A DNA stretch of 64,000 nucleotides, from positions 124,001 to 188,000 of the forward strand of contig UBQX01000003.1 of the NCBI GenBank assembly GCA_900467685.1, in the 5' to 3' direction. How positions within the stretch are numbered: the first letter of the stretch is position 1; each line of letters starts with the position of its first letter. Below are positions 32,844 to 48,401 of the stretch, in pieces. The notes beneath the pieces were generated by a model. That model worked only from the letters and a program-made list of their open reading frames with translations. It had not been told where the DNA came from and did no database searches. The position numbers and the translations under genes were made by a program. This DNA is from Hyphomicrobiales bacterium. Lineage in GTDB: Bacteria; Pseudomonadota; Alphaproteobacteria; Rhizobiales; Rhizobiaceae.

Positions 32844-34871
32844 TCACTCCCGGCTCCGTCTCCGCCGTCTCCCGCCGTCTCCCCCCGCATCCGCCAGCAC
32901 CTTTTTCTCCGGCAGCGCGATGACCTTTTCGAGGTTCGGGAAGCTATCCACCTTGTTGGGCATGGCCATGGCGTAGACGAAATGTTCCTGGAATTTCGGT
33001 TCCAGCGCGGTTTCGATCTTCTCGATCTTGCGCACCGTCTCCTCGATTTCGCGGCGATAGCCACGGTTGAGGAGGCACATGCGGGCGCCGGTGCCGGCCG
33101 CGTTGCCGACGGCCTTGACCTTTTCGAGGTCGCAATCGGGGATGAGGCCGAGCACCATCGCGTATTTCGGGTCGATGAAGGTGCCGAAGGCGCCGGCGAG
33201 GCCGATGCGGTCGACGTGATCTATGCCAAGCTTGTCCATCAGCAGCTTCACGCCGGCATAAAGCGCTGCTTTGGCGAGCTGGATGGCGCGGACGTCGTTC
33301 TGGGTAACGGTGATCTTCTGTGCGCCGTCATGCAGCAGATAGGAGAAGGTGCGGCCGTTTTCGAGGATGCGGGGGCTTCTGGCGGCCATTGCGCCATCGA
33401 CGACGCCATCTTCGGAGATGATGCCGGCGAGGAACATTTCGGCCACAACTTCGATGATCGCCGAGCCGCAGATCCCGGTGATGCCTGTCTTCTCGGCCGC
33501 TTCGGCAAAGCCCGGTTCGTCGGACCATTGCTCAACGCCGATGACGCGGAAGCGGGGTTCCAGCGTGTCGCGGTCGATGCGGACGCGCTCGATGGCGCCG
33601 GGTGCCGCGCGCTGGCCGGAGGAGATTTCTGCACCCTCGAATGCGGGGCCGGTGGGCGAGGAGGCGGCGACGGTGCGGGCGGAATTGCCGAGCACGATTT
33701 CGGCATTGGTGCCGATATCGACCAGCAGCATCTGCTCGTCCTGCCGGTGCGGACCTTCGGTCAGCGTTGCGGCCGCGGCATCCGCGCCGACATGGCCGGC
33801 GATGCAGGGGAGCATGTAGACACGCGCGCCCTTGTTGAGGTGGATGCCGATCTCTTCAGCCTTCAGGTGCTGCGCGCCGGAAGCGGCGAGCGCGAAGGGG
33901 GCGCCGCCGAGTTCGGTCGGGTCGATGCCGAGGAAGAGGTGGTGCATGACCGGGTTGCCGACGAAGACGGCATCGAGAATGTCGTGACGGTCAATGCCAC
34001 CCTGTTCGGCCACCTTGTCCACGAGGCCATTGATGGCGTCGCGCACGGCGTTCGTCATCGCCTCGCGCCCGTCCGGGTTCATCATGACATAGGACACGCG
34101 GCTCATCAGATCCTCGCCGAAGCGGATCTGCGGGTTGGATGTCCCGGAAGAGGCGAGCGTGCGGCCCGAGAGCAGCGAGGAGAGGTGCATGGCAATTGTC
34201 GTCGAGCCGATGTCGCAGGCAATGCCATAGGCCTCGTTCTTGAGGCCCGGATAGAGCGCGACGAGGCGAGGGCGGTCGTCGGCCTCATCCTTGTGGATCG
34301 CCGCCGTGACCTTCCATTCGCCCTTGCGCAGGATCTGCTGCACGCGCGGCAGGAGATGGAAATCGACCTCGATGCGCTTGAGCTTCCAGTCCTTTTCGAG
34401 TGCGACGAGGAGCCTGTCGAGATCGCCGAGCGGCTTTTCCATGTCGGGTTCCTCAACCTCGACATAGCACATGTGCACTGCCGGATCGCGTTCGATCACG
34501 CGGCCATCGCTCTCCTTGCGTACGACCTGCGCATTGACGACCGTGTCCTGCGGAATGTCGATAACGAGATCGCCTTCGATGGTGGCCGAGCAGGACAGGC
34601 GGCGGCCCTCTGGAAGCCCACGCACGCGGTAATAGCGCTCTTCCTTCGGACCAATGGGCGAGATGTGGTCGTTGGAAGACGTGATGCCATGCTTGGCGAA
34701 CTGGCCTTCCTGCACAGACACCTGACAGCGCCCGCATGTGGCACGCCCGCCGCAGACGCTTTCGACATAGACGCCCAGTTCGCGCGCCGCCTCGATGACC
34801 GGCGTGCCCGAGGCAAAACGGCCGCGCTTGCCCGAGGGCATGAAAAGGACGAGATGCGTTTCTTCAGTCAT
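32844..34871 (-). CDS. ASKHA-domain [2Fe-2S] protein, RACo/RamA-like reductive activator of corrinoid proteins
   Basis: A 675-residue protein. Residues 1-100 form a plant-type [2Fe-2S] ferredoxin with Cys at about 40, 46, 49 and 94 (CGGRATCGRC ... RLSC). A linker of about 110 residues follows. Residues from about 215 form an ASKHA ATPase-like region (ACDIGSTTIAMHLSSL, LLVDIGTNAEIVLG). This matches RACo of acetogens, which re-reduces inactive Co(II) corrinoid to Co(I) at the expense of ATP. The end is an Arg-rich tail (DGGRRRRRSRE). It lies downstream of the methyl-THF genes on the same strand, separated by a DUF4160/DUF2442 pair. Confidence 0.88.
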   Translation of the reverse strand: MTEETHLVLFMPSGKRGRFASGTPVIEAARELGVYVESVCGGRATCGRCQVSVQEGQFAKHGITSSNDHISPIGPKEERYYRVRGLPEGRRLSCSATIEGDLVIDIPQDTVVNAQVVRKESDGRVIERDPAVHMCYVEVEEPDMEKPLGDLDRLLVALEKDWKLKRIEVDFHLLPRVQQILRKGEWKVTAAIHKDEADDRPRLVALYPGLKNEAYGIACDIGSTTIAMHLSSLLSGRTLASSGTSNPQIRFGEDLMSRVSYVMMNPDGREAMTNAVRDAINGLVDKVAEQGGIDRHDILDAVFVGNPVMHHLFLGIDPTELGGAPFALAASGAQHLKAEEIGIHLNKGARVYMLPCIAGHVGADAAAATLTEGPHRQDEQMLLVDIGTNAEIVLGNSARTVAASSPTGPAFEGAEISSGQRAAPGAIERVRIDRDTLEPRFRVIGVEQWSDEPGFAEAAEKTGITGICGSAIIEVVAEMFLAGIISEDGVVDGAMAARSPRILENGRTFSYLLHDGAQKITVTQNDVRAIQLAKAALYAGVKLLMDKLGIDHVDRIGLAGAFGTFIDPKYAMVLGLIPDCDLEKVKAVGNAAGTGARMCLLNRGYRREIEETVRKIEKIETALEPKFQEHFVYAMAMPNKVDSFPNLEKVIALPEKKVLADAGGDGGRRRRRSRE

Positions 34872-34880
34872 TGTCTGCTT

Positions 34881-35303
34881 TCAATCCTGAGCGGTGGTCT
34901 TTTCGACCTTGCGCGGGCGTCCGCCCTTGCTGCCGTTGCGCCGGCTTGCGGCGGCTTTGGCGGGGGAGCGGGAGAGGCCACCGCGGCGTTGGGCGTCCAT
35001 GAAGCTGCGGCTGCCGAAGATGCCGCTCATCAGGCCAGTGATCGTGTAATCGACATCCAGCGTTTCCCAATGAAGGCCGGTTTCTCCGAGAAGTTCTACT
35101 TCGGCCAGTTCGGCCTCTGTCGCTTCCTGAAGCCCTTCCAAGGCGCGGGACGGAATCATGAAGGCTGCGCCATTCTCGAAATCGACGACGATGCGGCCTG
35201 ACTTTCCGTCGTAACGCACCGAAACGGGGATCGGCCGACCGGCTCTTTCTGTCTGCCAACGGGCCTTGGCTTCGGCAAGTTCTGCGTCGCTGACGTCAGC
35301 CAT
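34881..35303 (-). CDS. DUF2442 domain protein
   Basis: A 140-residue protein. The middle (VSVRYDGKSGRIVVDFENGA, then LLGETGLHWETLDVDYTITG) matches DUF2442. The C-terminus is basic (KAAASRRNGSKGGRPRKVEK) and may bind DNA. It overlaps the DUF4160 gene by 8 bases and has a strong GGAGGAAATACC. DUF4160-DUF2442 pairs are widespread and look like toxin-antitoxin-type modules, but the activity is not established. Confidence 0.75.
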   Translation of the reverse strand: MADVSDAELAEAKARWQTERAGRPIPVSVRYDGKSGRIVVDFENGAAFMIPSRALEGLQEATEAELAEVELLGETGLHWETLDVDYTITGLMSGIFGSRSFMDAQRRGGLSRSPAKAAASRRNGSKGGRPRKVEKTTAQD

Positions 35304-35523
35304 GGTATTTCCTCCAGACTTCGAGAAAGCGATCCCGATTGGCCTCAATGCTATCCACCGCACGGCGGACGTCTCGATCCGACATGCCTCCTTGGGTCAT
35401 GACCTTCAGGCTGGCCATGTCGATCCGGGCTTCGCCGTCTCCATAGACGTGGACATGCGGTGGTTCGTGGTCTGCCGTGTAGATGACGAAGCGCAGGCCA
35501 TGCTCGCGGAGAACCGTTACCAT
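35296..35523 (-). CDS. DUF4160 domain protein
   Basis: A 75-residue protein with the DUF4160 core (EHGLRFVIYTADHEPPHVHV, then YGDGEARIDMASL) and a C-terminal FLEVWRKYHG. It is the first gene of the pair with DUF2442. The Shine-Dalgarno is weak, and a dyad sits directly upstream. The pair separates the methyl-THF:corrinoid methyltransferase gene from the reductive activator gene. Confidence 0.75.
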   Translation of the reverse strand: MVTVLREHGLRFVIYTADHEPPHVHVYGDGEARIDMASLKVMTQGGMSDRDVRRAVDSIEANRDRFLEVWRKYHG

Positions 35524-35529
35524 TCAAAT

Positions 35530-35547
35530 AACCTAACTTGTTGGGTT
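35530..35547. promoter_or_regulatory. Dyad directly upstream of the DUF4160 gene
   Basis: AACCTAACTTGTTGGGTT has 7-bp arms with one G-T pair around CTTG, ending 7 bp before the DUF4160 start on the minus strand. It could be an autoregulatory operator of the pair, or a weak hairpin with a T tail on the plus strand. Confidence 0.4.
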
Positions 35548-35604
35548 TTTCAATGGCCCTTCAGGATGAAGTATGGTTCTCGCGCGACTTGACCGAACTT
35601 TGCC

Positions 35605-36573
35605 TTACTCGCTCGCGCCACCCCCGCCAACGCGTGCTGCACGACCGCCACGGCGCGAGGGGCCGCCGCTCGCGGCCGGGGCAGGGCTCTGCGCTGCAGC
35701 GCCACCTTCAGCGGGCTTGTAGTCGCGATAGGTCATGATCCAGTTCGAGCAATTCGGGTCGGTGCCGTTCAAGACGTTTGCGGCGCGGACGGCTTCCATT
35801 TCCTGCGGGCGGCAGGGGTTCATGATGGCGGAGGTCATGCCGGCGCCGATGACCATGGGGATGAAGCCGGCGTTGATGCCGTGGCGATGCGGCAGGCCGA
35901 AGGAGATGTTGGAGAGGCCGCAGGTCGTGTTGACCTTGAGTTCGTTGCGCAGGCGATAGAGAAGCTGGAAGACCTGGCGGCCGGCGTCGCCGAGCGCCCC
36001 GATCGGCATGACGAGCGGGTCGACCACGATGTCGTGCGGCTTGATGCCGTAATCGGCGGCGCGCTCGACGATCTTCTTGGCGACGGCAAAGCGGACGTCC
36101 GGGTCCATGGAAATGCCCGTCTCGTCATTGGAAATGGCAACGACCGGCACGTCATATTTCTTGCAGAGCGGCAGGATGGCTTCGAGCTTTTCTTCCTCGC
36201 CGGTCACCGAATTGACCAGCGGGCGACCCTTGGCGATCTTCAGCGCGGCCTCAATGGCGGCAGTCACGGAGCTGTCGATGGAGAGCGGCACGTCCACAAG
36301 ACCCTGCACGATTTCCATCGTCTGGACGAGCAGGCCCGGTTCGGTCTCGTTCGGGTTGACGGAGGTGACGCCCGCATTGACGTCCAGCATCGTGGCCCCG
36401 GCGGCGACCTGTTCCAGCGCGTCCTTGATGACGGTTTCGAAATTGCCGGCCTGCATCTCGGCGGCGAGCTTCTTGCGGCCGGTCGGGTTGATGCGTTCGC
36501 CGATCACGCAGAAGGGCTGGTCGAAGCCGATGACGATTTCGCGGGTGGCGGAGGCGACGATAGTGCGGGTCAT
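35605..36573 (-). CDS. Methyltetrahydrofolate:corrinoid methyltransferase (MeTr/AcsE-like)
   Basis: A 322-residue pterin-binding TIM barrel. Motifs: FCVIGERINPTGRKKLA near the N-terminus, ATMLDVNAGVTSVNPNE, PLSIDSSV, VNSVTGEEEKLE and ISNDETGIS. These match acetogen MeTr (AcsE) and the MetH folate domain, which move methyl between 5-methyl-THF and a corrinoid protein. The C-terminal 35 residues are a Gly/Arg/Ala-rich low-complexity tail (GGPSRRGGRAARVGGGG). In the metF operon; 63 bases separate it from metF. Confidence 0.88.
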   Translation of the reverse strand: MTRTIVASATREIVIGFDQPFCVIGERINPTGRKKLAAEMQAGNFETVIKDALEQVAAGATMLDVNAGVTSVNPNETEPGLLVQTMEIVQGLVDVPLSIDSSVTAAIEAALKIAKGRPLVNSVTGEEEKLEAILPLCKKYDVPVVAISNDETGISMDPDVRFAVAKKIVERAADYGIKPHDIVVDPLVMPIGALGDAGRQVFQLLYRLRNELKVNTTCGLSNISFGLPHRHGINAGFIPMVIGAGMTSAIMNPCRPQEMEAVRAANVLNGTDPNCSNWIMTYRDYKPAEGGAAAQSPAPAASGGPSRRGGRAARVGGGGASE

Positions 36574-36636
36574 TGTGTTCGGTCCTTCAGGCGGAGCGGA
36601 GTTGATCTGAAAATGAATGTAAGAGGCGTCGCCGCC

Positions 36637-37728
36637 TCAGGATTGATGCGTGGCGGCAGCTTTGACCAGGTCCTGCTGGTTCTGCAACTGGCCTTCATGA
36701 ACATCTGCGGCGTGGGCTGCGGCAATGGCTTCGCTGCGGGATACCTCGCGCTTCCAGGGCTGGCGGCCCTTCAGGACGCCTGATTCATGGACGATCTCTG
36801 CAACATATTCTTCCTGCCGGTAGGCCATGACGTGGATGCCGGAAACGCCTTCGATCTCCTTGACCTCGTTGATCATGTCGATGCAGATCTGCTTGCCTTC
36901 CTGCTTCTGGTTTTCCGCGCCCTCAAGCCGCTTGATGATGTTGTCGGGGATGTGGATGCCGGGGACGTTCGTCCTGATCCATTTCGCGGTCTTGGCCGAT
37001 GCCATCGGGCCGACGCCAGCGAGGATGAAGCATTTCTCGGCGTAACCGAGATCGACCACCTTCTTCATGTATTCCTTGAACATCGGAATATCGAAGACAT
37101 ACTGGCTCTGCACGAATTGCGCGCCGGCGGCGATTTTCTTGCCCAGGCGATAGGGGCGGAAATCGTAAGGCGGGGCGAAGGGGTTGATGGCGGCACCGAG
37201 GAAGACACCCGGCGGTGTCGTCAGCTTGCGGCCGGAGAGAAACTTGCCTTCGTCGCGCATGGTGCGGATCGTTTCGAGCATGGACATGCAGTCGAGGTCG
37301 AAGACCGGCTTCGCGCCCGGCTGGTCGCCGGCCTGCACGCCGTCGCCGGTGAGGCAGAGGATGTTCTGCACGCCCATGGCGGAGGCGCCGAGCACGTCGC
37401 CCTGAATGGCGATGCGATTGCGGTCGCGGGCCGAGATCTGCATGATCGGTGCATAGCCCATGCGGGTGAGCAGCGCGCAGATGCCGACAGAGGACATGTG
37501 GCAGTTGGCGCCCGAGGCATCGACGGCGTTGATGCCGTCCACCCAGCCTTCGAAGATGGCGGCGCGTTCGTAGACGTCTTCCGGATTGGCGCTGTCGGGC
37601 GGGTTGAGTTCGGCGGTGACGGCAAATTCGCCGCGGCGCAGGATGCGTTCCAGACGGCCGCGCGAGGAATGGCCGGGCAGGGGCTCCAGCGGCAGGCCGG
37701 GGTCGTGGGGATGCGTGTCGTTCATCAT
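36637..37728 (-). CDS. Methylenetetrahydrofolate reductase-like protein (MetF, acetogen-type partner of MetV)
   Basis: A 363-residue MetF-family TIM barrel with TAELNPPDSANPEDVYERA, GINAVDASGANCHMSSVG, RDRNRIAIQGDVLGASAMGV, LCLTGDGVQAGDQPGAK and AAGAQFVQSQYVFD. The FAD-binding pocket regions are recognisable. Unlike standard rhizobial MetF it is translationally linked to a Cys-rich MetV-like protein (ATGATG overlap), so it probably works as a MetVF complex, with the direction of reaction (methylene-THF to methyl-THF or back) set by the electron partner. Confidence 0.85.
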   Translation of the reverse strand: MMNDTHPHDPGLPLEPLPGHSSRGRLERILRRGEFAVTAELNPPDSANPEDVYERAAIFEGWVDGINAVDASGANCHMSSVGICALLTRMGYAPIMQISARDRNRIAIQGDVLGASAMGVQNILCLTGDGVQAGDQPGAKPVFDLDCMSMLETIRTMRDEGKFLSGRKLTTPPGVFLGAAINPFAPPYDFRPYRLGKKIAAGAQFVQSQYVFDIPMFKEYMKKVVDLGYAEKCFILAGVGPMASAKTAKWIRTNVPGIHIPDNIIKRLEGAENQKQEGKQICIDMINEVKEIEGVSGIHVMAYRQEEYVAEIVHESGVLKGRQPWKREVSRSEAIAAAHAADVHEGQLQNQQDLVKAAATHQS

Positions 37729-38288
37729 TTCACCGCTCCCTTGCCCTGCGCGGGTGCTTCTTTTGCCTTTGCAGCCAGCGCCGTGACGCGCAGCCAGGCG
37801 GAGGTTTCGCGCAGCGACTGATCCACCGGCTTCTGGACGTTCAGGATCGCGTCACCCTTTGCCATGTTCTGCGAGCCCTTCCAGGCCTGGACCCAGACGC
37901 AGGGCATGTCCGGCTCAACCTCGCAATGGCCGTTGGCGCGGACGCCGCCGCAGGGGCCGTTGCGGAGCTGCTTGGGACAGTTCATCGGGCAGCTCATGCC
38001 GGTGGAGGAAAGGGCGCACTGGCCGCACATGCGACAGTCGAAGAGCAGGCCCTTGACGTTGCGCTCGATGAACTTCACCGGCTTTTCGGCGCGGCTGTAG
38101 CCGACGGCCTTCCAGAAGGGGTGAAGCTTCAGGAAAAGATCGGCAAACAGATTGTAGAGGACCTCGAGAAAGCGCGAGTGGCGCACCGACCAGAGACGGA
38201 TCGTGTAACTGCGCCCGGCGCGACGCGATGGCGAGACGCCGGAGGGCTGGTAGGCGGTGCCGGTGGGTTTCTTGGCAGCTTCAGCCAT
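37725..38288 (-). CDS. MetV-like zinc/iron-sulphur subunit (MTHFR C-terminal domain)
   Basis: A 187-residue protein. The central region has the MetV cysteine pattern: LLFDCRMCGQCALSSTGMSC, PMNCPKQLRNGPCGG and GHCEVEPDMPCVWV. In acetogens MetV (DUF5981 family) binds MetF and carries Fe-S or zinc. The N-terminal 60 residues are basic (RRAGRSYTIRLWSVRHSRF). It overlaps the upstream small gene by 8 bases and the downstream metF by 4, so all three are tightly coupled. Confidence 0.85.
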   Translation of the reverse strand: MAEAAKKPTGTAYQPSGVSPSRRAGRSYTIRLWSVRHSRFLEVLYNLFADLFLKLHPFWKAVGYSRAEKPVKFIERNVKGLLFDCRMCGQCALSSTGMSCPMNCPKQLRNGPCGGVRANGHCEVEPDMPCVWVQAWKGSQNMAKGDAILNVQKPVDQSLRETSAWLRVTALAAKAKEAPAQGKGAVK

Positions 38289-38583: not shown

Positions 38584-38759
38584 GATGGATTTGCCCTGCC
38601 TCTCCCCAGATCGCCAGAGCCTGTCCTGCAAGGCCTGCGAATGCAAGGAGAATGCACGCGCGCTCAAAGGTGGACGCCACTTGCCGCGACGTCGGGATCG
38701 CTCAAAAGCGACAGGGCGGGCCGTGAAGGCGTGTTGCGCTGCGACATCTTTAGGTCAGA

Positions 38760-38778
38760 CGTAAACATGGGGTTTACG
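38760..38778. promoter_or_regulatory. 19-bp dyad between the methyl-THF operon and the PAS-GGDEF gene
   Basis: CGTAAAC-ATGGG-GTTTACG has perfect 7-bp arms. It lies in the 320-base divergent region between the operon starting at 38583 and the gene starting at 38904, where a regulator could control both. Confidence 0.5.
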
Positions 38779-38791
38779 AATTGTCTCTAGC

Positions 38792-38903: not shown

Positions 38904-40373
38904 ATGCCGAATTCTCGTGATGCGGATATTTTCGAACTCGCTCCAGTGGCGATGTGGATTGAGGATTTCAGCGACGTTCGTGCGCAATTTGACGTCTGGA
39001 AGGCGCAGGGCGTTGAAGACCTCCGCGCTTTCCTGCGTGAAGACGCTTCGCGCGTTTCCGCCTGCTCCAGCCGCATCAAGATCCTTCAGGTGAACGCCAA
39101 GACGCTCGAGGTTTTCGAAGCGCGCGATCTCGATGACCTGAAGGCCAACCTGGACAAGGTGTTCTGGGGCGACATGCTCGAGACGCACATCAACGAACTC
39201 GTTCAGCTCTGGGAGGGGAAGACAGCCTTTTCGAGCAGCGCCGTCAACTATACCTTGACCGGCCGCAGGCTGGACATCCAGCTTCGGGGCGCAGTTCTGC
39301 CCGGTCATGAGGCGACGCTCGGGCGCTTGCTGATCACGACCGAGGATGTGACGGTCCGCGAGGAAGCCCGCCGCGCCGAGGCACGCAATCGCCAGCATGC
39401 GGAGGGTATTTTCGAATATTCGCCTGTCTCGCTCTGGCTTGAGGACTTCAGCGCCATCTACAACCTGATGTCGCGCGTTCGCGAAAGCGGCATCGTGGAT
39501 TTCCGGGTTTTCCTCGACGTCCATCCGGAGTTTATCCAGCAATGCATGTCGGAGATCCGCGTTCTCGACGTCAACAAGGCAACTCTGGACCTTTTCGGTG
39601 CGTCGGATCGTGAGTTCCTGTTCAAGCGGTTGCCTCATGTTTTCCGCGACGCGATGGAAAAGCCATTCAAGGAACAGCTGATCGATCTTTGGGATGGCCG
39701 GCTTCACCAGCATCGTGAAGTCATCAATTATGCGCTGGACGGCAACGAGCGGCATTTGCTGATGAATTTCTCTGTCCTGCCCGGGCATGAGACGGACTGG
39801 TCGCTGATTCAGGTGGCGCTGACGGATATCACGGCGCGCAAGAAGGCCGAAGCCTATCTGGAATATCTCGGCAAGCACGACGTGCTGACGCGCCTGCACA
39901 ATCGCGCTTTCTACACCGATGAGCTGAACCGGCTGGAGCGCAAGTCGCTGCGTCCCGTGTCGGCGGTCATCATCGATCTCAATGGTCTCAAGGAGGCTAA
40001 TGACCAGCTGGGTCATGAGGCAGGTGATGCGCTTCTTCGCCGCTTCGGCGAGGTGCTGAACGGTGTCGCATCAGCTCCGGTCACGGCCTCGCGCATCGGG
40101 GGTGACGAGTTCGCCCTGCTGATGCCCGGCGCGGATGCGCGCGCGGCGAGTTCCATGGCCGATACGATCCGCGAACTGCTCAAGATCAACAACCAGTTCT
40201 ATTCCGACTCGCCCATCTCGATGTCGCTCGGCTTTGCGACCAGCGAACCGGGCGAAAGCATCGAATCGGTGGTGCGGCGCGCGGATGCCCTGATGTTCGA
40301 AGAAAAGCGCGCCTATTACGCCGAGAAGTCTTGCGGGGATCGGCACGCGGAGACGCGCAGGGTGGCGCGCTGA
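38904..40373 (+). CDS. Tandem PAS-GGDEF diguanylate cyclase
   Basis: A 489-residue protein. Two similar sensor repeats of about 155 residues occur in tandem: PVAMWIEDFS ... CSSRIKILQVNAKTLEVFEA (residues about 12-85) and PVSLWLEDFS ... CMSEIRVLDVNKATLDLFGA (about 173-240). The C-terminal GGDEF domain (HDVLTRLHNRAFYTDELNRL, IDLNGLKEANDQLGHEAGD) carries an intact GGDEF loop (RIGGDEFALL). No signal or membrane segment is visible, so a cytosolic ligand is sensed. It sits inside the methyl-transfer gene island. Confidence 0.88.
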   Translation: MPNSRDADIFELAPVAMWIEDFSDVRAQFDVWKAQGVEDLRAFLREDASRVSACSSRIKILQVNAKTLEVFEARDLDDLKANLDKVFWGDMLETHINELVQLWEGKTAFSSSAVNYTLTGRRLDIQLRGAVLPGHEATLGRLLITTEDVTVREEARRAEARNRQHAEGIFEYSPVSLWLEDFSAIYNLMSRVRESGIVDFRVFLDVHPEFIQQCMSEIRVLDVNKATLDLFGASDREFLFKRLPHVFRDAMEKPFKEQLIDLWDGRLHQHREVINYALDGNERHLLMNFSVLPGHETDWSLIQVALTDITARKKAEAYLEYLGKHDVLTRLHNRAFYTDELNRLERKSLRPVSAVIIDLNGLKEANDQLGHEAGDALLRRFGEVLNGVASAPVTASRIGGDEFALLMPGADARAASSMADTIRELLKINNQFYSDSPISMSLGFATSEPGESIESVVRRADALMFEEKRAYYAEKSCGDRHAETRRVAR

Positions 40374-40383: not shown

Positions 40384-40995
40384 TCAGACCGACGAACTCG
40401 CAGCCCTGTCCAGGGCAGGGGTCAGATCGCCATAGCCGGTGAACCGGTATTCATAGGCGAGGCCAAGGAAGTCGGCCGCCCATCTGGCCTTTGCCTGTAA
40501 CTCTTCGTCCTCGGTCTGTGCCAGATAGACGATCTTCTCGTAGTTCCCGAAGACCATCTGGATGAGCTCCGGATGCTTGTCGAGCTTGAGCGGCTCGATG
40601 ACGAAGGCCTCGAACTGGCGGGCGATCAGATCCGTCAGATAGAAGGCGGTGATCTCGTCGGCGCATTCGGCAAGGAATTTGTCGACGCCGGTGTAGAAGG
40701 CATAGCAATGCGGACCGGCGATCCGCTCAATCCCTTCTTCGGAGCAGATGCGGTCGATCTCGCCGCGCGTGCCGCATTCAGCGTAGCCGATGAAAATGCG
40801 CTCTATTCCCTCGGCGCGGGCCTCGGCGATCTTTTCGCGCAGAGCCGGTGCGATCTTGTCCGGATAGACGTGCCAGATGGCCGGCAGACAGGTGAGATCG
40901 ACATGGCGAAGGCCGTTGATCTCGCAGATGGCGAGGATCTCGCGGGCGAGGGCGCCGCACGCAATGACTCGGACCTTGCCTTCGTTCTGTTTCAT
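40384..40995 (-). CDS. DUF1638 family protein
   Basis: A 203-residue protein (MKQNEGKVRVIACGALAREI; LTCLPAIWHVYPDKIAP; GYAECGTRGEIDRIC; HCYAFYTGVDKF). The Cys and His residues in these four blocks are the conserved set of DUF1638 and look like a metal site. DUF1638 genes occur beside MttB-type methyltransferases and corrinoid proteins in many bacteria and archaea, so a role in corrinoid loading, repair or methyl transfer is likely, but unknown. The start at 40995 is 12 codons inside a longer frame. Confidence 0.8.
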   Translation of the reverse strand: MKQNEGKVRVIACGALAREILAICEINGLRHVDLTCLPAIWHVYPDKIAPALREKIAEARAEGIERIFIGYAECGTRGEIDRICSEEGIERIAGPHCYAFYTGVDKFLAECADEITAFYLTDLIARQFEAFVIEPLKLDKHPELIQMVFGNYEKIVYLAQTEDEELQAKARWAADFLGLAYEYRFTGYGDLTPALDRAASSSV

Positions 40996-41087
40996 TCGTA
41001 ATCCTTGGGAACCTTCGCGCGAGTCATGCATTACTTCGACGCCGGCGAAGGTGAAGCCGGGCCAACTTTTACATCAGGGGTAACACC

Positions 41088-41308: not shown

Positions 41309-42004
41309 TCAGGCGTTGAGGCTGTTGTGCTTGCGCTTGATGAAGTCCTTGGCGGTCTCCACAGCGACAGCCGCATCGCGACAATAGGCGTCGGCGCCAA
41401 TCGCCTTGCCGAATTCCTCATTCAGCGGCGCGCCGCCGACGAGAACGACGAGATCGTCGCGGATTCCCTTTTCCTTCAGCGTGTCGATCACGACCTTCAT
41501 GTAGGGCATCGTCGTGGTGAGAAGGGCGGACATGCCGAGAATGTCCGGCTGTTCCTTTTCGATCGCTTCCAGATAGGCTTCGACCGCATTGTTGATGCCG
41601 AGGTCGACGACGTCGAAGCCGGCGCCTTCCATCATCATGCCGACAAGGTTCTTGCCGATGTCGTGGATGTCGCCCTTGACGGTGCCGATAACCATCTTGC
41701 CCTGCTTGGGCGCGTCGGTGGCGGCGAGCAGCGGGCGCAGGATGTTCATGCCCGACTTCATGGCATTGGCCGAGAGCAGAACTTCCGGCACGAAGAGGAT
41801 GCCGTCGCGGAAGTCGATACCGACGATGCGCATGCCTTCAACCAGTGCCTGGGTGAGAACGTCGTAAGGCGCCCAGCCGCGATCCAGCAGGATGCGGGTG
41901 GCTTCTTCGATTTCCTCCTTCAGACCGTCGTAAAGGTCGTCGTGCATCTGCTGCACGAGTTCTTCGTCGGAAAGCTCGGAAAGAATGATTTCATCGTCAG
42001 ACAT
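41309..42004 (-). CDS. Corrinoid (cobalamin-binding) methyl-carrier protein, MttC/MtgC-like
   Basis: A 231-residue protein. Residues about 10-95 form the helical cap domain (LYDGLKEEIEEATRILLDRG), and the Rossmann domain has the base-off motif GDIHDIGKNLVG (DxHxxG; the His replaces the lower ligand of cobalt), then MSALLTTTMPYM and VGGAP. It accepts a methyl group from an MttB-type enzyme and passes it to the folate methyltransferase. A longer linker at the N-terminus (MSDDEIILSELSDEELVQQM) is typical of the free-standing carriers. Confidence 0.93.
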   Translation of the reverse strand: MSDDEIILSELSDEELVQQMHDDLYDGLKEEIEEATRILLDRGWAPYDVLTQALVEGMRIVGIDFRDGILFVPEVLLSANAMKSGMNILRPLLAATDAPKQGKMVIGTVKGDIHDIGKNLVGMMMEGAGFDVVDLGINNAVEAYLEAIEKEQPDILGMSALLTTTMPYMKVVIDTLKEKGIRDDLVVLVGGAPLNEEFGKAIGADAYCRDAAVAVETAKDFIKRKHNSLNA

Positions 42005-42191: not shown

Positions 42192-43262
42192 TTAACGGAC
42201 GTTTCGTCGGTCAAACCGGGCCGCGACGAAGCGTGAGAAGACTGGCCCCAGGAACAGCACCGAGATGAACCGCGCCATCTGCATCGCCAGAACGAAAGGT
42301 TTGTCGACCGGAGAGGAGGCTGCGATGATCGCGACGGAATCGGCCCCGCCCGGACTTGTTGCCAGATAGGCCGTCAGCAGGTCGATATGGGCGAAGTGAG
42401 ACACGGCTAGCGCCAGCACTCCGCAAAGCGCGATCAGCGTGAGGATCGACAGAAACAGGACAGGCAGCGCCTTGAGCGCGTGCATCACGATCTCGCGGGT
42501 GAAACGGAAGCCGACATTCCAGCCGAAAAGCCCATAGGCAACGGCAAGCAGCCACATGGGCAGCGTGATCGTCACGAGCCCCGCGGCGTGGCAGGCTATG
42601 CCAATGACGATCGGCGCGAGCATGTTGATCGAGGGCCTCTTCAGAAGGCGCGAGAGAATCGGCCCGCAGGCGGCGATGGCCAGTGTCAGGAGAAGGCTCA
42701 GCGGGTCCACCGGCGGAAACCAGGGCTCGGGCGGCGGCAATTGTCCGGTTTGTCCGAGAACGAAGCGTGCTATCAGCGAGGCGGTGGCTGCGACCATGAG
42801 GACGCGCAGATATTGCATGAAGGCGACGAGGCGAAAGTCGGCGCCGGCTGCCTCGGCCATCAGGACCATCGCGCTTGCCGCTCCCGGCGAGGAGCCCCAG
42901 ATGGCCGTCGTGCCCGGCAGGACCTGATATTTTGCGAGCAGCCAGCCGATTGCGAAGCTCAAGGCAATAACGGAAAGAACAAGTCCAAGGAAGAGAAAGC
43001 CGTCCTTGGCGATTTCGGCAAAGACGGTCAGCGGCATGCCGCCCGCGATCATCACGCCGATAATCCCCTGGCAGAAGGCGACCAGCGGGGAGGGCAGGGA
43101 GAACTTCATGCCGCGCGCTGCCAGTACCAGGCCGGAAACCATCGGGCCCAGCAGGAAAACGGCGGGAAGCTGGAGCGCATGCAGCACACCTGTCAGCGTG
43201 GCTGTCAGCACAATGAGCAGGCACCAGTTTCTGACGCTGTTGCGGCTGTCGCTTTTGGACAT
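42192..43262 (-). CDS. AbrB-family membrane protein (PF05145 type)
   Basis: About 356 residues with ten or so membrane segments. The two-fold repeat of the AbrB/'ammonia monooxygenase' family is visible: FLLGPMVSGLVLAARG ... WGSSPGAASAMVLMA in the first half and MLAPIVIGIACHAAG ... ATSPGGADSVAIIAASS in the second. The family may be transporters; substrates are not known. It sits between the corrinoid carrier and MttB genes, so uptake of a methylated compound is possible. ATG 43262 is chosen; no strong Shine-Dalgarno. Confidence 0.8.
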   Translation of the reverse strand: MSKSDSRNSVRNWCLLIVLTATLTGVLHALQLPAVFLLGPMVSGLVLAARGMKFSLPSPLVAFCQGIIGVMIAGGMPLTVFAEIAKDGFLFLGLVLSVIALSFAIGWLLAKYQVLPGTTAIWGSSPGAASAMVLMAEAAGADFRLVAFMQYLRVLMVAATASLIARFVLGQTGQLPPPEPWFPPVDPLSLLLTLAIAACGPILSRLLKRPSINMLAPIVIGIACHAAGLVTITLPMWLLAVAYGLFGWNVGFRFTREIVMHALKALPVLFLSILTLIALCGVLALAVSHFAHIDLLTAYLATSPGGADSVAIIAASSPVDKPFVLAMQMARFISVLFLGPVFSRFVAARFDRRNVR

Positions 43263-43480
43263 GGGCGGGGACTTCGCTGGAAAGGCAGGCTTGATGCCGG
43301 GGCGTACAGCAGCAATCCGGCCGGCGCAAGGATGCAAGGCGGGAAAATCCGGGCGAGGCTTGCCGAATTTTTCTTCGCGAACAGCCTTGCCAGTGGCGCA
43401 ATTAGGAATGTCCGGCTAGGGCTATGGTCTAAGATCGTCTGTCATCGGCCGGAAGGGCCATCATACTGGGTGAGGGAACC

Positions 43481-45064
43481 ATGGATCAGGAAATCGAACT
43501 TGCAGGCGCCGCAGCCGAGGGAGATGGCGGACGGCGTAGCCGCAGTGCTGGCCGGGGTGCCGCAGCACGCCGCGCGGCTCGCACGGGCGGTGGTCCGGGC
43601 CCGTCGCTTCCCTATATCACCCGCAAGATCCGCGAATACGAGGTTCTGGACGAGGAAGGCCTGAGCCTGATCGAGAACAACGCCGACCGCGTTCTGGAGG
43701 AAATCGGCATCGAGTTCCGTGAAGATGCCGAGGCGCTGGCGCTCTGGAAGGAAGCCGGCGCGGATGTGCGCGGCGAGCGCGTACATTTTCCGAAGGGGCT
43801 TTGCCGCGAACTCCTCAAGAGCGCACCGAAGGAATTTACGTGGCATGCGCGCAACCCGGAGCGCAGCGTTCACGTCGGCGGCAAGGCGACGATCTTCGCG
43901 CCGGTTTACGGCCCTCCCTTCGTCCGCGACCTCGAAGGCAACCGTCGCTATGCGACGATCGAAGATTTCCGCAATTTCGTGAAGCTCGCCTATATGGCGC
44001 CGTCCATGCATTCATCGGGCGGTACGGTCTGCGAACCGGTCGACATTCCGGTCAACAAGCGCCATCTCGATATGATCTACAGCCATATCAAGTATAGCGA
44101 CAAGCCGTTCATGGGTTCGGTGACTGCGCCGGAACGTGCGGAAGATACGATCGCCATGGCGAAGCTGGTCTTCGGCGACGACTTCGTTGAAAACAATTGC
44201 GTCACGCTGAACCTGATCAACGCCAACTCGCCGATGGTTTTCGACGAAACCATGGTCGGCGCGCTCAAGGTCTATGCGCGTCACAATCAGGCTTCGGTCA
44301 TCTCGCCCTTCATCCTCTCCGGCGCAATGAGCCCGGTGACGGTGGCCGGCACGCTGACGCAGATCCTGGCCGAAGTTCTCGCAGGCGCTTCCTTCACGCA
44401 GCTGATCCGCAAGGGCTCGCCGGTTCTGTTCGGCACGTTTGCAGCGTCCATCTCCATGCAGTCGGGCGCACCGACCTTCGGTACGCCGGAACCGTCGCTC
44501 GTGTCTTACGGCGCCGCGCAGCTGGCCCGCCGTCTCGGTCTGCCTTTCCGTACCGGCGGTTCGCTCTGTGCGTCCAAGGTTCCGGATGCGCAGGCCGCGC
44601 ATGAGAGCGCCAATACGCTCAACATGACGCTGCTCGCCGGCACCAACTTCGTGCTGCACGCCGCTGGCTGGCTCGAAGGCGGTCTGGTCTCCTCCTACGA
44701 GAAGTTCATGATCGACCAGGATCAGCTCGGCATGATGCAGAAGATGGCAGAGGGCGTGGACCTCTCCGAAAACGCGCAGGCGCTCGACGCCATCCGCGAA
44801 GTCGGCCCGGGCAGCCACTATCTCGGCTGTGCACACACCCAGTCGAACTTCCAGACGGCCTTCTACCGCTCGCCGCTCGCCGACAACAACTCGTTCGAGC
44901 AGTGGGAAATCGAAGGGTCCAAGCGCATCGAGGAGCGCGCCAATGCGCTCTGCCGTTCGTGGCTTGAGAGTTACGAAGCACCGCCGCTTGATCCGGCCAT
45001 CGACGAGGCGCTGCTCGCCTTCATCCAGCAGAAGAAGGACTCGGTTCCCGACGCCTTCACCTGA
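43481..45064 (+). CDS. Trimethylamine methyltransferase (MttB) superfamily protein, non-pyrrolysine
   Basis: A 527-residue member of the MttB superfamily. The catalytic barrel begins near YITRKIREYEVLDEEGLSLI and includes VGGKATIFAPVYGPPFVRDL, GGTVCEPVDIPVNKRHLDMI and PFRTGGSLCASKVPDAQAAH. There is no in-frame amber codon, so it belongs with the glycine betaine, carnitine, proline betaine and butyrobetaine methyltransferases rather than true MttB. The first 40 residues are Arg/Gly/Ala-rich (GDGGRRSRSAGRGAAARRAA). The substrate cannot be read off. GTGAGGGAACC precedes the ATG. Confidence 0.9.
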   Translation: MDQEIELAGAAAEGDGGRRSRSAGRGAAARRAARTGGGPGPSLPYITRKIREYEVLDEEGLSLIENNADRVLEEIGIEFREDAEALALWKEAGADVRGERVHFPKGLCRELLKSAPKEFTWHARNPERSVHVGGKATIFAPVYGPPFVRDLEGNRRYATIEDFRNFVKLAYMAPSMHSSGGTVCEPVDIPVNKRHLDMIYSHIKYSDKPFMGSVTAPERAEDTIAMAKLVFGDDFVENNCVTLNLINANSPMVFDETMVGALKVYARHNQASVISPFILSGAMSPVTVAGTLTQILAEVLAGASFTQLIRKGSPVLFGTFAASISMQSGAPTFGTPEPSLVSYGAAQLARRLGLPFRTGGSLCASKVPDAQAAHESANTLNMTLLAGTNFVLHAAGWLEGGLVSSYEKFMIDQDQLGMMQKMAEGVDLSENAQALDAIREVGPGSHYLGCAHTQSNFQTAFYRSPLADNNSFEQWEIEGSKRIEERANALCRSWLESYEAPPLDPAIDEALLAFIQQKKDSVPDAFT

Positions 45065-45192
45065 AACGAGCCCGCAGCCAGGGAGCAAGGCGCGGCCGCA
45101 CATGTGACGGGGATGATCCAGCGCGCCGTCTGGCGGCCGCATTATCAGGAGATGCGAGAGCAGTCTTCACGCAAGACGGAGGGCGGGCAGTG

Positions 45193-45870
45193 ATGCCCGC
45201 CTTCGGCGTTCTGGAGGCGCTCGAAGAGGCGTTGCAGCCATCCGGCATTCGCCTGCGTGGTGTTGTCAAGTTTCACGATGGCGAAGGGCCGGCGCTGGCG
45301 GACGGGAGTACCGCGCGGAGCGTCGTTCTTCTTGGCAATGTCGGTGGTTCGATCTGGCCTGCCTTTTCAGACTGGCGAGGGGCCTACGCCGGCGATGATC
45401 CTCTTGATGCGTGGTCGAAAGCCGTGATCGGCCCGATCGCAAAAAGACTTGGGGCAACGCCCTTCTATCCGTCCGATCCGCCCTACATGCCGTTCCAGAC
45501 TTGGGCTATGCGTGCCCAAGGGCTGAAGGCATCGCCACTTGGCATCCTCATCCACCCAGAATACGGCCTCTGGCATGGGTATCGCGGGGCACTGGCGTTC
45601 GGCGAGAGGATCGAGTGGAAATCATTGGAGGCGGATATTTCACCCTGCGACACCTGCCTCGAGAAGCCCTGTCTTTCGGCGTGTCCGGCCGATGCAATCT
45701 CGTTGTCCGGCTTCTCGGTGCAGCCGTGCCGCGCCCATCTTTTCACAGCCAAGGGGCAGTCGGGCTGCAGGGCGTCAGGTTGCTTCGCACGAGACGCCTG
45801 CCCGGTCGGTGCGGCCTACCGTTATCCCACGGAGCAGTTGCGCTTTCACATGGACGCCCTGTTCGGCTGA
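45193..45870 (+). CDS. 4Fe-4S cluster protein of the MttB island
   Basis: A 225-residue protein. The C-terminal half has two Cys clusters: CDTCLEKPCLSACP and, after FSVQPCRAH, CRASGCFARDACPVG. This resembles the two-cluster module at the end of epoxyqueuosine reductase (QueG), itself a cobalamin enzyme, but the cobalamin domain is absent. The N-terminal half (VVLLGNVGGSIWPAF; HPEYGLWHGYRGAL) recalls the QueG-like fold. GGAGGGCGGGCAG precedes ATG 45193. It follows mttB by 128 bases and could feed electrons to the reductive activator. Confidence 0.75.
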   Translation: MPAFGVLEALEEALQPSGIRLRGVVKFHDGEGPALADGSTARSVVLLGNVGGSIWPAFSDWRGAYAGDDPLDAWSKAVIGPIAKRLGATPFYPSDPPYMPFQTWAMRAQGLKASPLGILIHPEYGLWHGYRGALAFGERIEWKSLEADISPCDTCLEKPCLSACPADAISLSGFSVQPCRAHLFTAKGQSGCRASGCFARDACPVGAAYRYPTEQLRFHMDALFG

Positions 45871-45874
45871 TGGC

Positions 45875-46219
45875 TCAAGCCTTCGGCCACGCCTTATCCA
45901 GGCCGCCGGATTTCGAGAGGCCTTCGCGGAAGGCGGAATAGGCGGGATGCTGGCTGGAGCGGGCGATTTCCATGAGGCGGATCTGCAGGCGGGCAGGGGC
46001 ATTTGCCCCCAGCCATTCGCCGGCGCGCGAAAGCTTCAGTGAGTTGAGGAAACGCGCTTCGGCCGCAGCGTTGACGAAATGCGCAATGCCGTCGAGCAGC
46101 GCATCGTCCTGAGCGGCGTTTTCGAGAACCAGTTGAAGCCATGCCTTGTCCTGATCATCAAGCCCCGCAAGCTTGGCGGCCACGGTTTCGCTATCAGGGA
46201 AATTGGCCTTGGCATTCAT
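45875..46219 (-). CDS. Hypothetical protein, 114 residues
   Basis: A soluble, mostly helical small protein (MNAKANFPDSETVAAKLAGL; NAAAEARFLNSLKLSRAGEW; RLMEIARSSQHPAYSAFREG). I do not recognise a family. It converges with the Fe-S protein gene with 4 bases between them. Coding is supported by a full-length frame with sensible composition and by its tight fit between neighbours. Confidence 0.55.
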   Translation of the reverse strand: MNAKANFPDSETVAAKLAGLDDQDKAWLQLVLENAAQDDALLDGIAHFVNAAAEARFLNSLKLSRAGEWLGANAPARLQIRLMEIARSSQHPAYSAFREGLSKSGGLDKAWPKA

Positions 46220-46362
46220 CGTTCAGTCTTTCGTTTCGAATCGGTCTCTTGGCCCTGATCATAGGGCAGGGCCTGAGGCTTCGCACCTGCCGTTCGCGGC
46301 TTGACTTCGGCTGCCCCAGAACTTCCGATGGCTCCGTGACGAATCGCTTAAAAAGGGGCGGC

Positions 46363-47379
46363 ATGAAACAGCTTTCGGTCTGCATGCCGAGCAATCGCGG
46401 CTTTCAACGATCTTTTCGCGCTATTGAAACCGCGCTTGCCTTCTGCGAGGCGCGCGATGCGGTCCTGATCGTTTCCGACAATTCGCGCGACGCAGAAAAG
46501 GCCGCCTATTGGCAGGGACGCTCTGCGAATCTCGTCTACCTGGCCGATGCGCCGCTTGAGCCCAACGCCAATGGACGAAACTCGTTTCTGCCGGTCGAAA
46601 CGCCTTTTCTGATGCCCATGGGCGATGACGATGAAATCCTCGTGCGGGATGATCATGCTCCGATTGATCTTGCGGCGCTTCCGGCGAACGTGATGGGCGT
46701 CAAACCGGCTGTCGACCTCTTCCTCGACGGGACTGACCTTTCCGTCCCGCGGGTCTATGACCTGGGCGGCGAGACACCCGGCGAAAGGCTGCGCCAGTAT
46801 ATCGAGCGGAACGAAGGGGATAACTCCACCTTCTACAGCATCTTCCGCACCGAGCCCTATCTGTCGTTACGCGAGTTTTTCCTGACCGCGCATCCCACCC
46901 GCGGCTCCTATGCGGACTGGCAAATGGTGATGGCGCTGGTCGTTGCGGGCAAGTTGCTCCTCGATCCTTCCATTCTCTTTCGCTACAACGTTGCCAGCTG
47001 GGCTACGCCTGAAGCGGTTGAGACGAATGCGAAGAATCTCTACACGCTTGTTGGCCTCCCGGAGAATTTCCGGGACTACAATTCGTTGTTGCGGTGGATG
47101 GATCTCTTCGTCTTCTCGTGTCGCCGTGGGGTGGTTCAGACGCGGGAGGCGCTGGCAGAGCTTCAGGCGGGCGAGCTTTCCGACCTGCTCGACCTCGGTC
47201 TGCGCATCGCAGTCGAAAAGTCGGGTGAGGGTAATCCGACCCTTGCGGAAGTCGCCGGAAAGGCTCTGAAGGAGCGCAATCCGACGCTGAAATTCCTGCA
47301 TTGCGCGGGGGTGCTGGACTGTTACCAGCCGGGGCTGAAGGCGAAATATATCGCCTTCCTCAAAGCTGCGTCGACCTGA
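46363..47379 (+). CDS. Glycosyltransferase family 2-like protein
   Basis: About 338 residues. The N-terminus (MKQLSVCMPSNRGFQRSFRA) and VLIVSDNSRD, followed by LMPMGDDDEIL, fit the GT2 nucleotide-sugar fold with an acidic DxD-like loop. The C-terminal half is helical and unfamiliar. AAAAGGGGCGGC precedes ATG 46363. No link to the methyl-transfer genes is obvious; its place between them may be incidental. The reaction is unknown. Confidence 0.65.
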   Translation: MKQLSVCMPSNRGFQRSFRAIETALAFCEARDAVLIVSDNSRDAEKAAYWQGRSANLVYLADAPLEPNANGRNSFLPVETPFLMPMGDDDEILVRDDHAPIDLAALPANVMGVKPAVDLFLDGTDLSVPRVYDLGGETPGERLRQYIERNEGDNSTFYSIFRTEPYLSLREFFLTAHPTRGSYADWQMVMALVVAGKLLLDPSILFRYNVASWATPEAVETNAKNLYTLVGLPENFRDYNSLLRWMDLFVFSCRRGVVQTREALAELQAGELSDLLDLGLRIAVEKSGEGNPTLAEVAGKALKERNPTLKFLHCAGVLDCYQPGLKAKYIAFLKAAST

Positions 47380-47393
47380 TCGCCGCGCTTGCC

Positions 47394-48401
47394 TCAGCCG
47401 CGACGGCGACGGCGTTCGCCGCTACCACCGCTTTCGGAGGCCATCTTGTTGCGGAGCGGACCGATGCGGGTAACAACATCGTCGACCGTCGGGCGCGGAC
47501 CCTTGGTGTGGCTGTCGATGGCGCCACGGATCGAGCGAAGGTGATCGCAGGACGTGCCGCAGCAGCCGCCGATGATGCGGGCGCCCGCGTCGATCGCGAG
47601 ATGCGCATATTCGGCCATCAGCTCCGGCGTGCCCGAATAGTAGATTTCCGCGCCGCGATATTCCGGGATGCCGCAGTTGCCCTTCACGACGACCACGGCG
47701 TTCGGGTCCGCTGCCGTCATGTCAAGGAGCGAGGAGAGGATGTCCGCAGCACCCACGCCGCAATTGGCGCCGAAGGCGACCGGCTTGTCCGAAAGGCCTT
47801 CTGCTACTTGCGGCATGTCCTTCGGGTTGAGACCCATCATGGTCTTGCCGGCAGTATCAAAGGAGCCGGTGTAAACGTAAGGCAGATCGAGCGCGATGGC
47901 CGCTTCTGCTGCAGCGCGGATTTCGTCCGGCGAGGACATGGTCTCGATCCAGGCGATGTCGATCCCGCCGGCCTTGAGGCCTTCCATCTGTTCCTTGAAG
48001 GCGGCAACGGCGTCGTCATAGGTCATGGCGCCGAGCGGAACCAGGAGTTCGCCGGTCGGGCCGACGGAGCCGGCGACGATGACCTTGCGGCCGGCCTTGT
48101 CGGCGACGGCGCGGGCAATCTCTGCAGCCTTCCTGTTCAGTTCGAAAACGCGGCCTTCAGCCTTGTGCAGCTTCAGGCGCTGGCGCGTGCCACCGAAGGA
48201 GTTGGTGAGGATGATATCCGCGCCGGCGTCCACGAAGTCCTGGTGAAGCTTCGTGATGTTTTCGGGCTTGGATTCGTTCCACAATTCCGGAGCCTCGCCG
48301 GCCTCCAGACCCATGGCGAAAAGATTGGTGCCAGTGGCACCATCGGCCATGAGTACGCCCTTTTCGGCAAGCAGCGCCTCTAACGGATTTGCAGTCGTCA
48401 T
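47394..48401 (-). CDS. bmt: Betaine-homocysteine S-methyltransferase Bmt-like
   Basis: A 335-residue homocysteine S-methyltransferase. Zinc ligands are in FGANCGVGA and the C-terminal IIGGCCGTSCDH; the N-terminal GVLMADGATGTNLF loop binds homocysteine. Rhizobia carry a characterised bmt that uses glycine betaine to make methionine; this gene has the same size and motifs. The C-terminus is an Arg/Gly-rich tail (SGGSGERRRRRG). A 16-bp palindrome lies 30 bp upstream of the start. Confidence 0.85.
   Translation of the reverse strand: MTTANPLEALLAEKGVLMADGATGTNLFAMGLEAGEAPELWNESKPENITKLHQDFVDAGADIILTNSFGGTRQRLKLHKAEGRVFELNRKAAEIARAVADKAGRKVIVAGSVGPTGELLVPLGAMTYDDAVAAFKEQMEGLKAGGIDIAWIETMSSPDEIRAAAEAAIALDLPYVYTGSFDTAGKTMMGLNPKDMPQVAEGLSDKPVAFGANCGVGAADILSSLLDMTAADPNAVVVVKGNCGIPEYRGAEIYYSGTPELMAEYAHLAIDAGARIIGGCCGTSCDHLRSIRGAIDSHTKGPRPTVDDVVTRIGPLRNKMASESGGSGERRRRRG

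Follow-up and report, generated by a model that had tools for sequence, protein, structure and literature searches.

How do bacteria that live in air run a corrinoid-dependent methyl-transfer route, and which proteins keep its cobalamin in working order? This question is raised by a gene cluster at positions 32,844 to 48,401 of a 64,000-nucleotide stretch of DNA from a Hyphomicrobiales bacterium of the family Rhizobiaceae (assembly GCA_900467685.1, contig UBQX01000003.1, positions 124,001 to 188,000), which is referred to here as the window and corresponds to contig C30 of a 5.05-Mb genome. The original prediction had treated the cluster as an acetogen-type system, unexpected in an apparent aerobe. 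The surprise does not hold, as the same system has been published in aerobic alphaproteobacteria, Sinorhizobium meliloti among those named, and Mausz et al. (2025) set its carrier apart from the carriers of anaerobes, including Desulfitobacterium (PMC12478193). The Mtg system is thus known. What we did not find described in the main texts of the mtg papers is a conserved iron-sulfur (Fe-S) protein encoded beside its methyltransferase gene, and for this protein we propose a specific role. Taken as a whole, we consider it probable that the cluster is an MtgBCDE system with the Fe-S protein as its B12 partner.

Methyl-transfer genes of the cluster

To define the parts of the cluster, the predicted genes were compared with Pfam and NCBIfam. 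Each gene named in the original prediction was an open frame at its position and carried the expected family, except the Fe-S protein, which matched no Pfam or NCBIfam family at E ≤ 0.001. The genes are as follows (THF, tetrahydrofolate; MTHFR, methylene-THF reductase).

32844..34871, minus strand: RACo/RamA-type ATP-dependent corrinoid reductive activator (RACo_C_ter PF14574, 4.8e-90; PF17651 and PF17650, middle and linker domains; Fer2)
35605..36573, minus strand: mtgD, methyl-THF:corrinoid methyltransferase (PF00809 Pterin_bind, 1.2e-27; NF005719, 396 bits, cut-off 259)
36637..37728, minus strand: metF2, the genome's second MTHFR gene (PF02219, 1.7e-33)
37725..38288, minus strand: metV-like subunit, 187 amino acids (aa) from the inferred start (open reading frame to 38435, 236 aa; PF12225, MetV C-terminal domain, 3.4e-27)
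40384..41031, minus strand: DUF1638 protein (PF07796, 1.6e-24)
41309..42004, minus strand: mtgC, corrinoid carrier (PF02310 and PF02607; B12-binding domain 8.2e-26, cap 4.3e-17)
43481..45064, plus strand: mttB/mtgB, non-pyrrolysine MttB-superfamily methyltransferase (PF06253, MTTB, 6e-232)
45190..45870, plus strand: Fe-S protein, 226 aa (alternative ATG start at 45193; recognized by fold model, motif and eight cysteines)
47394..48401, minus strand: mtgE/bmt, homocysteine S-methyltransferase module (PF02574, 3.8e-64)

These family matches support the predicted route from a quaternary amine through a corrinoid to methyl-THF, with an ATP-driven activator. MttB covered PF06253 at positions 3-500 of 500, had no in-frame TAG, and remained under the cut-off of the trimethylamine methyltransferase model TIGR02369 (285.6 versus 525 bits). 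MtgC is a stand-alone carrier with a cap domain and has its DxHxxG motif as DIHDIG at residue 112; it scored under both curated NCBIfam MtgC cut-offs (NF047996, 210.3 versus 370 bits; NF047995, 173.6 versus 310 bits). The activator has N-terminal cysteines at residues 40, 46, 49 and 94, and it matched PDB 3zyy (9.1e-97), an entry entitled iron-sulfur cluster binding protein, which we take to be RACo itself. The metF2 and metV genes overlap by 4 bp. MetV, with eight cysteines, had no match to PDB sequences up to E 1; an MTHFR core (PF02219) with a separate cysteine-rich MetV (PF12225) encoded alongside is the combination by which MetVF is recognized. The DUF1638 protein was modelled with a pLDDT of 85.9, and the model had no PDB fold match at E ≤ 0.001.

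The mtgE gene lies inside the range covered by the original prediction, which did not name it. Its product scores 141 bits against the homocysteine domain of a MetH and 48 bits against BHMT, so that it is nearer to the former, and the presence of the gene means that the set is also a split methionine synthase. The use of methyl groups for methionine, which had been put forward as a possibility, is therefore firmer than first worded.

The window shares with MtgBCDE of Ruegeria pomeroyi and with the S. meliloti mtg locus an MttB-type donor enzyme, a stand-alone carrier, an MtgD that is proposed to be bidirectional, MtgE, RamA/RACo, DUF1638 and MetF2, and differs from them in two extra genes. In R. 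pomeroyi, MtgC and MtgD take part in making methionine as well as in growth on glycine betaine, and no protein was induced more strongly on N-osmolytes than MetF2; in S. meliloti, a cobalamin operon and two reactivation modules lie together with mtgBCDE (PMC12478193). The main text of that article mentions neither MetV nor the Fe-S protein (its supplement and figures were outside our scope). The same reaction logic occurs in the Mtg system of the anaerobe Desulfitobacterium, as described in PMC12478193, and, with an ATP-dependent activator, in MtqC/MtqA/RamQ of Eubacterium limosum, an anaerobe in which methyl-THF enters the Wood-Ljungdahl pathway (PMC8604678). With an MttB donor lacking pyrrolysine, a carrier, a pterin-binding MtgD, a homocysteine-binding MtgE, RamA/RACo and DUF1638 all encoded, assignment of the cluster to the Mtg type appears nearly certain. 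Judged by its sequences, it is a further example of the published aerobic MtgBCD(E) betaine:corrinoid:tetrahydrofolate methyltransferase system rather than a new one, because a system of the same kind has been published in Ruegeria and reported in S. meliloti.

Regarding the substrate, MttB matched PDB sequence 4yyc at 1071 bits and 2qne and 9yce at 416-417 bits. The title of 9yce, glycine betaine methyltransferase, makes it the nearest PDB sequence with a named substrate, whereas the trimethylamine methyltransferase 7xcl matched at 140 bits. Glycine betaine is thus the likely main substrate on sequence grounds. Members of the MttB superfamily vary in substrate (PMC12478193; PMC8604678), which would leave room for another quaternary amine such as proline betaine, carnitine, gamma-butyrobetaine or choline as methyl donor; we consider this unlikely in view of the 9yce match and of the single MttB gene found in the genome.

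Conservation of the locus in relatives

To compare the cluster with those of relatives, loci were searched with the window's proteins. The comparison used the best 80 of 585 confirmed MttB stretches, taken from named genomes and hence from close relatives, with a 4.5-kb piece of the window's own genome (L001) excluded. Counts are lower bounds, as flanks end at ±10 kb and some loci reach contig ends. The closest relatives by MttB were mostly named Rhizobiaceae. Within the flanks, mtgC was found in 79/80 loci, DUF1638 in 79/80, the Fe-S gene in 77/80, mtgD in 75/80, RACo in 70/80, mtgE in 69/80, metV in 59/80 and metF2 in 58/80; the outer genes are undercounted because the flanks end at 10 kb.

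Gene order and strands agreed across the related loci, and the arrangement is not due to chance. In each of the 76 loci with both frames callable, the Fe-S gene came after mttB in the same orientation, at a gap of 86-333 bp (median 101; 125 bp in the window). The conserved locus also occurs on a Paracoccus plasmid, and an annotated S. meliloti record has the gene order and strands of the window, with its metV copy as a separate gene of 195-aa size adjoining metF. The S. meliloti Ak57 record CP090106.1 (L085), 3.7 Mb and titled pSymB, carries the mtg locus; this label may be a mix-up with the chromosome. Division of the genes between two strands had been thought to need a special regulatory link, but it is simply the conserved layout of the locus, stretched in the window by two extra genes.

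One of these, an AbrB-family gene (42192-43337, minus strand), lies between mtgC and mttB, where the gap is 1476 bp in the window and has a median of 274 bp in 79 loci. The other, a PAS/GGDEF gene (38904-40373, plus strand), lies between metV and DUF1638. Both were in place in 1/80 loci, the same one each time (L002), whose MttB is 97% identical to that of the window; a 34% GGDEF match in another locus (L018) sits at a different spot. By this comparison, both genes fall outside the conserved set, and the simplest reading is an insertion in the window's lineage.

Co-occurrence was further examined in 192 alphaproteobacterial genomes, with the Fe-S protein counted at 50 bits or more. MttB was found in 43 of them, RACo in 47, DUF1638 in 40, the MetV domain in 18 and the Fe-S protein in 44; the Fe-S count rises to 55 at E ≤ 0.001, the other 11 being weak partial matches, of which two were checked and proved QueG-like. 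Among the 43 MttB genomes, RACo was present in 43, DUF1638 in 39, the Fe-S protein in 32 and MetV in 16, compared with 4, 1, 12 and 2, respectively, among the 149 genomes without MttB. The co-occurrence across genomes on which the original prediction had staked itself thus holds. MetVF, which it had placed in the route, is present as genes, but behaves as an accessory, with 58-59/80 loci and 16/43 MttB genomes.

The Fe-S protein beside mttB

The Fe-S protein came last in the original prediction's list, and although its gene is present, it is the least explained part of the cluster. It had no match to PDB sequences up to E 1. Its Pfam match to MMACHC was weak (E 0.38), and a profile of the family gave 46 weak matches to the PDB up to E 5, the best at 0.22. 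Most of these were ferredoxin-like chains; human MMACHC was matched as well, at E 0.9-1.2 over an HP-W-RG motif, and we take both MMACHC matches as leads only. A structure was then predicted with AlphaFold. The alignment behind it comprised 31 sequences, namely that of the window protein and those of 30 homologues selected by hand for spread out of 77, and the model reached a pLDDT of 91.1 and a pTM of 0.87. Foldseek found 155 matches in the PDB, 24 of them at E ≤ 0.001, and all 50 listed of the 155 were MMACHC/CblC, epoxyqueuosine reductase QueG or reductive dehalogenases (RdhA), with best E-values of 5.4e-5 for MMACHC, 9.6e-5 for QueG and 3.5e-3 for the PCE dehalogenase. Going by this model, the protein very probably has the CblC/QueG/RdhA fold, and the nitroreductase-like cobalamin-binding fold that marks Class III B12/[4Fe-4S] proteins is present in the predicted structure.

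In the 31 sequences, seven letters of the motif HPxxGxWxxYRG were invariant, and each of the eight cysteines was kept in 30 or 31. In 17 chosen diverse homologues, which are 22-48% identical to the window protein, all eight cysteines were kept in 16, the Methylibium homologue having lost the last three; of the motif, only G and R were invariant, with H at 90% or more. The first five cysteines follow CxxCx4CxxxCx14C, near the CxxCxxCxxxCx15C of QueG as derived from residue numbers in PMC4646009.

Proteins of 430-463 aa, parts of which the family profile matched at E 1e-5 to 2e-6, form a sequence bridge from the Fe-S protein to QueG. Two of them were checked: their matches to QueG were at 2.2e-15 and 1.6e-13, those to reductive dehalogenases at 6.2e-6 and 0.0014. 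Proteins of this size at L131:9026-10318 and L130:9217-10608 have a QueG/dehalogenase-like core and score well below the QueG cut-off; they are perhaps a further Class III-like family. The Methylibium homologue of the Fe-S protein itself matched QueG at 1.8e-4. The window's protein had no match to QueG (TIGR00276) at E ≤ 1, nor a significant QueG, RdhA or MMACHC family match.

QueG has a cobalamin region at residues 1-181 and a two-[4Fe-4S] ferredoxin region at residues 182-257 (PMC4646009). The Fe-S protein shares this predicted two-part core, a cobalamin-type module followed by a two-[4Fe-4S] module, and at 226 aa leaves no room for the C-terminal repeat domain of QueG. It shares the predicted fold of MMACHC/CblC, which has no Fe-S module, and of the reductive dehalogenases, whose extra domains it lacks. 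Binding of a corrinoid by the protein appears rather likely from the model.

One alternative is a plain dicluster ferredoxin that donates electrons to RACo and has an N-terminal domain without cobalamin. RACo requires a low-potential electron donor, which such a protein would provide, and the two-cluster cysteine set would suit it. The S. meliloti copy is annotated as ferredoxin, and 8 of the 11 invariant columns of the diverse alignment lie in the cysteine region. Against this, 34 of the 52 invariant columns of the close alignment lie in the 150 residues before the clusters, and the model resembles CblC, QueG and RdhA, not ferredoxins, among the matches listed.

The distribution of the protein bears on the same alternative. 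Counted by genus in the class survey, the Fe-S protein was present in 28/38 with MttB and 11/130 without. In a phylum survey of 299 genomes, it was counted at 125 bits or more, which kept 51 of 98 genomes with a match at E ≤ 0.001 and dropped 47 weak ones; RACo was found in 48. The Fe-S protein occurred in 39/48 RACo genomes and in 12/251 others. These co-occurrence counts are only partly corrected for descent. Within the window's family, the two proteins were found in the same 12 genomes and were both missing from the other four (G226, G259, G285 and G383), and in family f20 they were found in the same 20 genomes, though by coordinates their genes are far apart. Since the Fe-S protein mostly co-occurs with RACo rather than replacing it, it would be a helper and not a substitute.

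Its gene neighbourhoods vary among lineages. The Fe-S gene adjoins mttB in Rhizobiaceae loci and on the Paracoccus plasmid and lies near an MttB gene in two genomes of one genus (G029 and G139). It stands in line with mtgD and RACo in L152, and in L150 between mtgC/DUF1638 and formate-THF ligase; in another genome of the latter's genus (G188), it adjoins DUF1638 by position. In L126, it lies beside an mtgC-like gene, a URO-D-type protein and DUF1638, and no MttB was found in that genome. On a Methylibium plasmid (L087:9890-10510), the homologue is the last gene of a btu/cob run. A general position beside cobalamin genes was considered and rejected: when 22 loci were searched with genes from the window and from Methylibium, cobalamin synthesis genes adjoined the Fe-S gene in Methylibium alone, with a 35% cobW match 4 kb off in Paracoccus and btuD-like ABC ATPase matches in some loci.

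For the plain ferredoxin, the co-occurrence with RACo and the one linkage with it count in favour. The Methylibium homologue, however, ends a cobalamin gene run with no RACo among the matches listed there, and 10 of the 14 f146 genomes that carry the Fe-S protein show no RACo. We therefore regard a plain ferredoxin as unlikely. A second alternative is an enzyme of its own, a QueG-like reductase acting on another molecule, whose place in the locus would be secondary. QueG and RdhA are enzymes, and the protein is present in 12 class genomes without MttB, in three of which the one neighbour scanned was an aldehyde dehydrogenase, a GH114 hydrolase and a semialdehyde dehydrogenase, respectively. 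The strong co-occurrence with MttB and RACo and the linkage to different mtg genes in several lineages argue otherwise, and we rate this alternative slightly lower still. Work on the corrinoid of MtgC is the reading that we favour, with moderate confidence.

Several observations weigh against a B12 protein devoted to MtgC and have to be set beside this preference. The TM-scores from Foldseek, at 0.38-0.59 by query length, are moderate, the rmsd values are 6-11 Å, and a protein of this fold that no longer bound cobalamin would be expected to give the same matches. Some distant homologues do not keep the HP of the motif, and the last three cysteines, those of the second cluster, are spaced unlike QueG. 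The Fe-S gene was not found in 3/80 related loci (L028, L077 and L079), 11/43 MttB genomes and 9/48 RACo genomes, and only four of the 14 f146 carriers have RACo. Because 12 of the 44 class carriers lack MttB, the protein is not confined to MttB loci, and confinement of that kind was rejected. Genes for MttB, DUF1638, RACo or MetV were found within 5 kb of at least 7 of the 44 class homologues; the other 37 had none of these within that distance among the matches listed, mtgC and mtgD being outside the survey. One neighbour was scanned in each of six such loci, and gave GH114, aldehyde dehydrogenase, semialdehyde dehydrogenase, amino acid kinase and, twice, no family.

Methyl metabolism of the genome and the proposed role

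Methionine synthesis was also weighed as the main purpose of the cluster. In Phaeobacter inhibens, methionine is made by a MetH split into three proteins, with RamA-like and DUF1638 proteins, and DUF1638 is genetically linked to the split synthase (Price et al. 2018, PMC5764234). The window shares the three split parts, the RamA-like protein and DUF1638. A reactivation domain (PF02965) was not found in P. inhibens, whereas the window's genome has one. A cluster mainly for methionine, as a split MetH, and not for betaine use, would agree with the presence of mtgC, mtgD and mtgE and with the requirement of mtgC and mtgD for methionine in Phaeobacter (PMC5764234) and Ruegeria (PMC12478193). It is improbable, however, given the 1262-aa MetH-type frame with the reactivation domain elsewhere in the genome and given mttB and metVF2 in the same locus. 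Price et al. noted the coexistence of the split synthase and MetH in S. meliloti as an unexplained aspect (PMC5764234).

Other genes make the cluster less indispensable. Elsewhere in the genome lie another MTHFR gene (G000:C22), which scores better than metF2, and, about 6-9 kb after the MetH reactivation domain on contig C23 (L148:8666-11153), a GbcA/GbcB-like Rieske pair. The pair scored below the NCBIfam cut-offs (GbcA, 509 versus 670 bits; GbcB, 369 versus 500 bits), and by its sequence could be a second betaine demethylase. With the MetH-type frame, the further MTHFR and this pair, the genome need not rely on the cluster for making methionine or for demethylating betaine, which also tells against the proposed role; in particular, the GbcAB-like pair weakens the idea that betaine use must depend on it. 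FAO_M, a domain of dimethylglycine/sarcosine-type dehydrogenases, occurs in three further genes of the genome, one of which, with DAO, FAO_M and GCV_T domains, lies on the minus strand about 8 kb before the window on the same contig (L149:6552-9113). As the genome has a MetH, the cluster probably serves catabolism in the first place, and methionine would be a secondary outlet.

Downstream of mtgE, the predicted cobalamin cluster was confirmed, with cob genes from 48686 onward, as assigned by Pfam.

48686-50263, plus strand: cobQ
50301-51203, plus strand: cobU/P
51200-52255, plus strand: cobW
52909-56877, plus strand: cobN
57525-58154: cobO, after cobN
50289..50628, plus strand: cobalamin riboswitch (RF00174, 76.9 bits, E 1.7e-17)

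The riboswitch overlaps the 5′ part of the cobU/P frame as read from its TTG. In this long frame, the CobU domain is not reached until residue 135, and the true start is probably later than the TTG at 50301. Between RACo and mtgD (34872-35604) lie two short frames, one matching DUF4160 and the second, by eye, presumably resembling DUF2442. Upstream of RACo, a 787-aa plus-strand frame (29287-31650), with a 745-aa frame opposite, had no Pfam match at E ≤ 0.001. No tRNAs were found in the window, and a promoter and terminator scan around mttB gave no signal above shuffles.

The proposed route takes its Mtg reaction steps from the relatives described in the papers. By analogy, MttB/MtgB would demethylate a quaternary amine, most likely glycine betaine, and load the methyl group onto the Co(I) of MtgC, and MtgD would hand it to tetrahydrofolate or, in reverse, let MtgE methylate homocysteine. 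MetVF2, or the other MetF, would oxidize methyl-THF into the C1 pool; we infer this direction of flux. Co(I) would occasionally oxidize to Co(II), more so in air, and be restored by RACo with ATP, DUF1638 assisting. The Fe-S protein may be a minimal Class III-type protein, a nitroreductase-like domain for base-off cobalamin followed by a two-[4Fe-4S] module, that handles B12 for MtgC. Holding base-off cob(II)alamin beside a low-potential cluster, as in QueG, it would supply cob(II)alamin with low-potential electrons, either by itself or on behalf of RACo; alternatively, it might strip the cofactor and deliver it to MtgC. In the fullest form of this proposal, which is tentative and which we judge somewhat less probable than even, the protein would be a third kind of Class III B12/[4Fe-4S] protein: a tiny stand-alone bacterial counterpart of CblC, the B12 processing protein of humans, with its own electron wiring, which reduces or reloads the MtgC corrinoid in oxygen-breathing bacteria and serves other cobalamin enzymes in lineages without mtg genes. 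Searches of open papers in PMC gave none that named a protein like CblC or QueG within an mtg locus, with supplements, figures and subscription articles outside the scope.

Glycine betaine is a common osmolyte. Its demethylation by a corrinoid route in aerobes was reported in 2025 (PMC12478193). Payne et al. (2015) pointed out that there may be other families of B12/[4Fe-4S] proteins and that no sequence motif for cobalamin binding is available by which to search for them (PMC4646009). The Fe-S family, with its link to an established B12 system, would offer a case of this sort that can be tested. Its conservation beside the Mtg genes draws attention to the question of how aerobic cells maintain or regain cobalamin in its super-reduced state, and if a CblC-like Fe-S protein does reduce or reload MtgC, this would help to account for the survival of a Co(I) methyltransferase in the presence of air.

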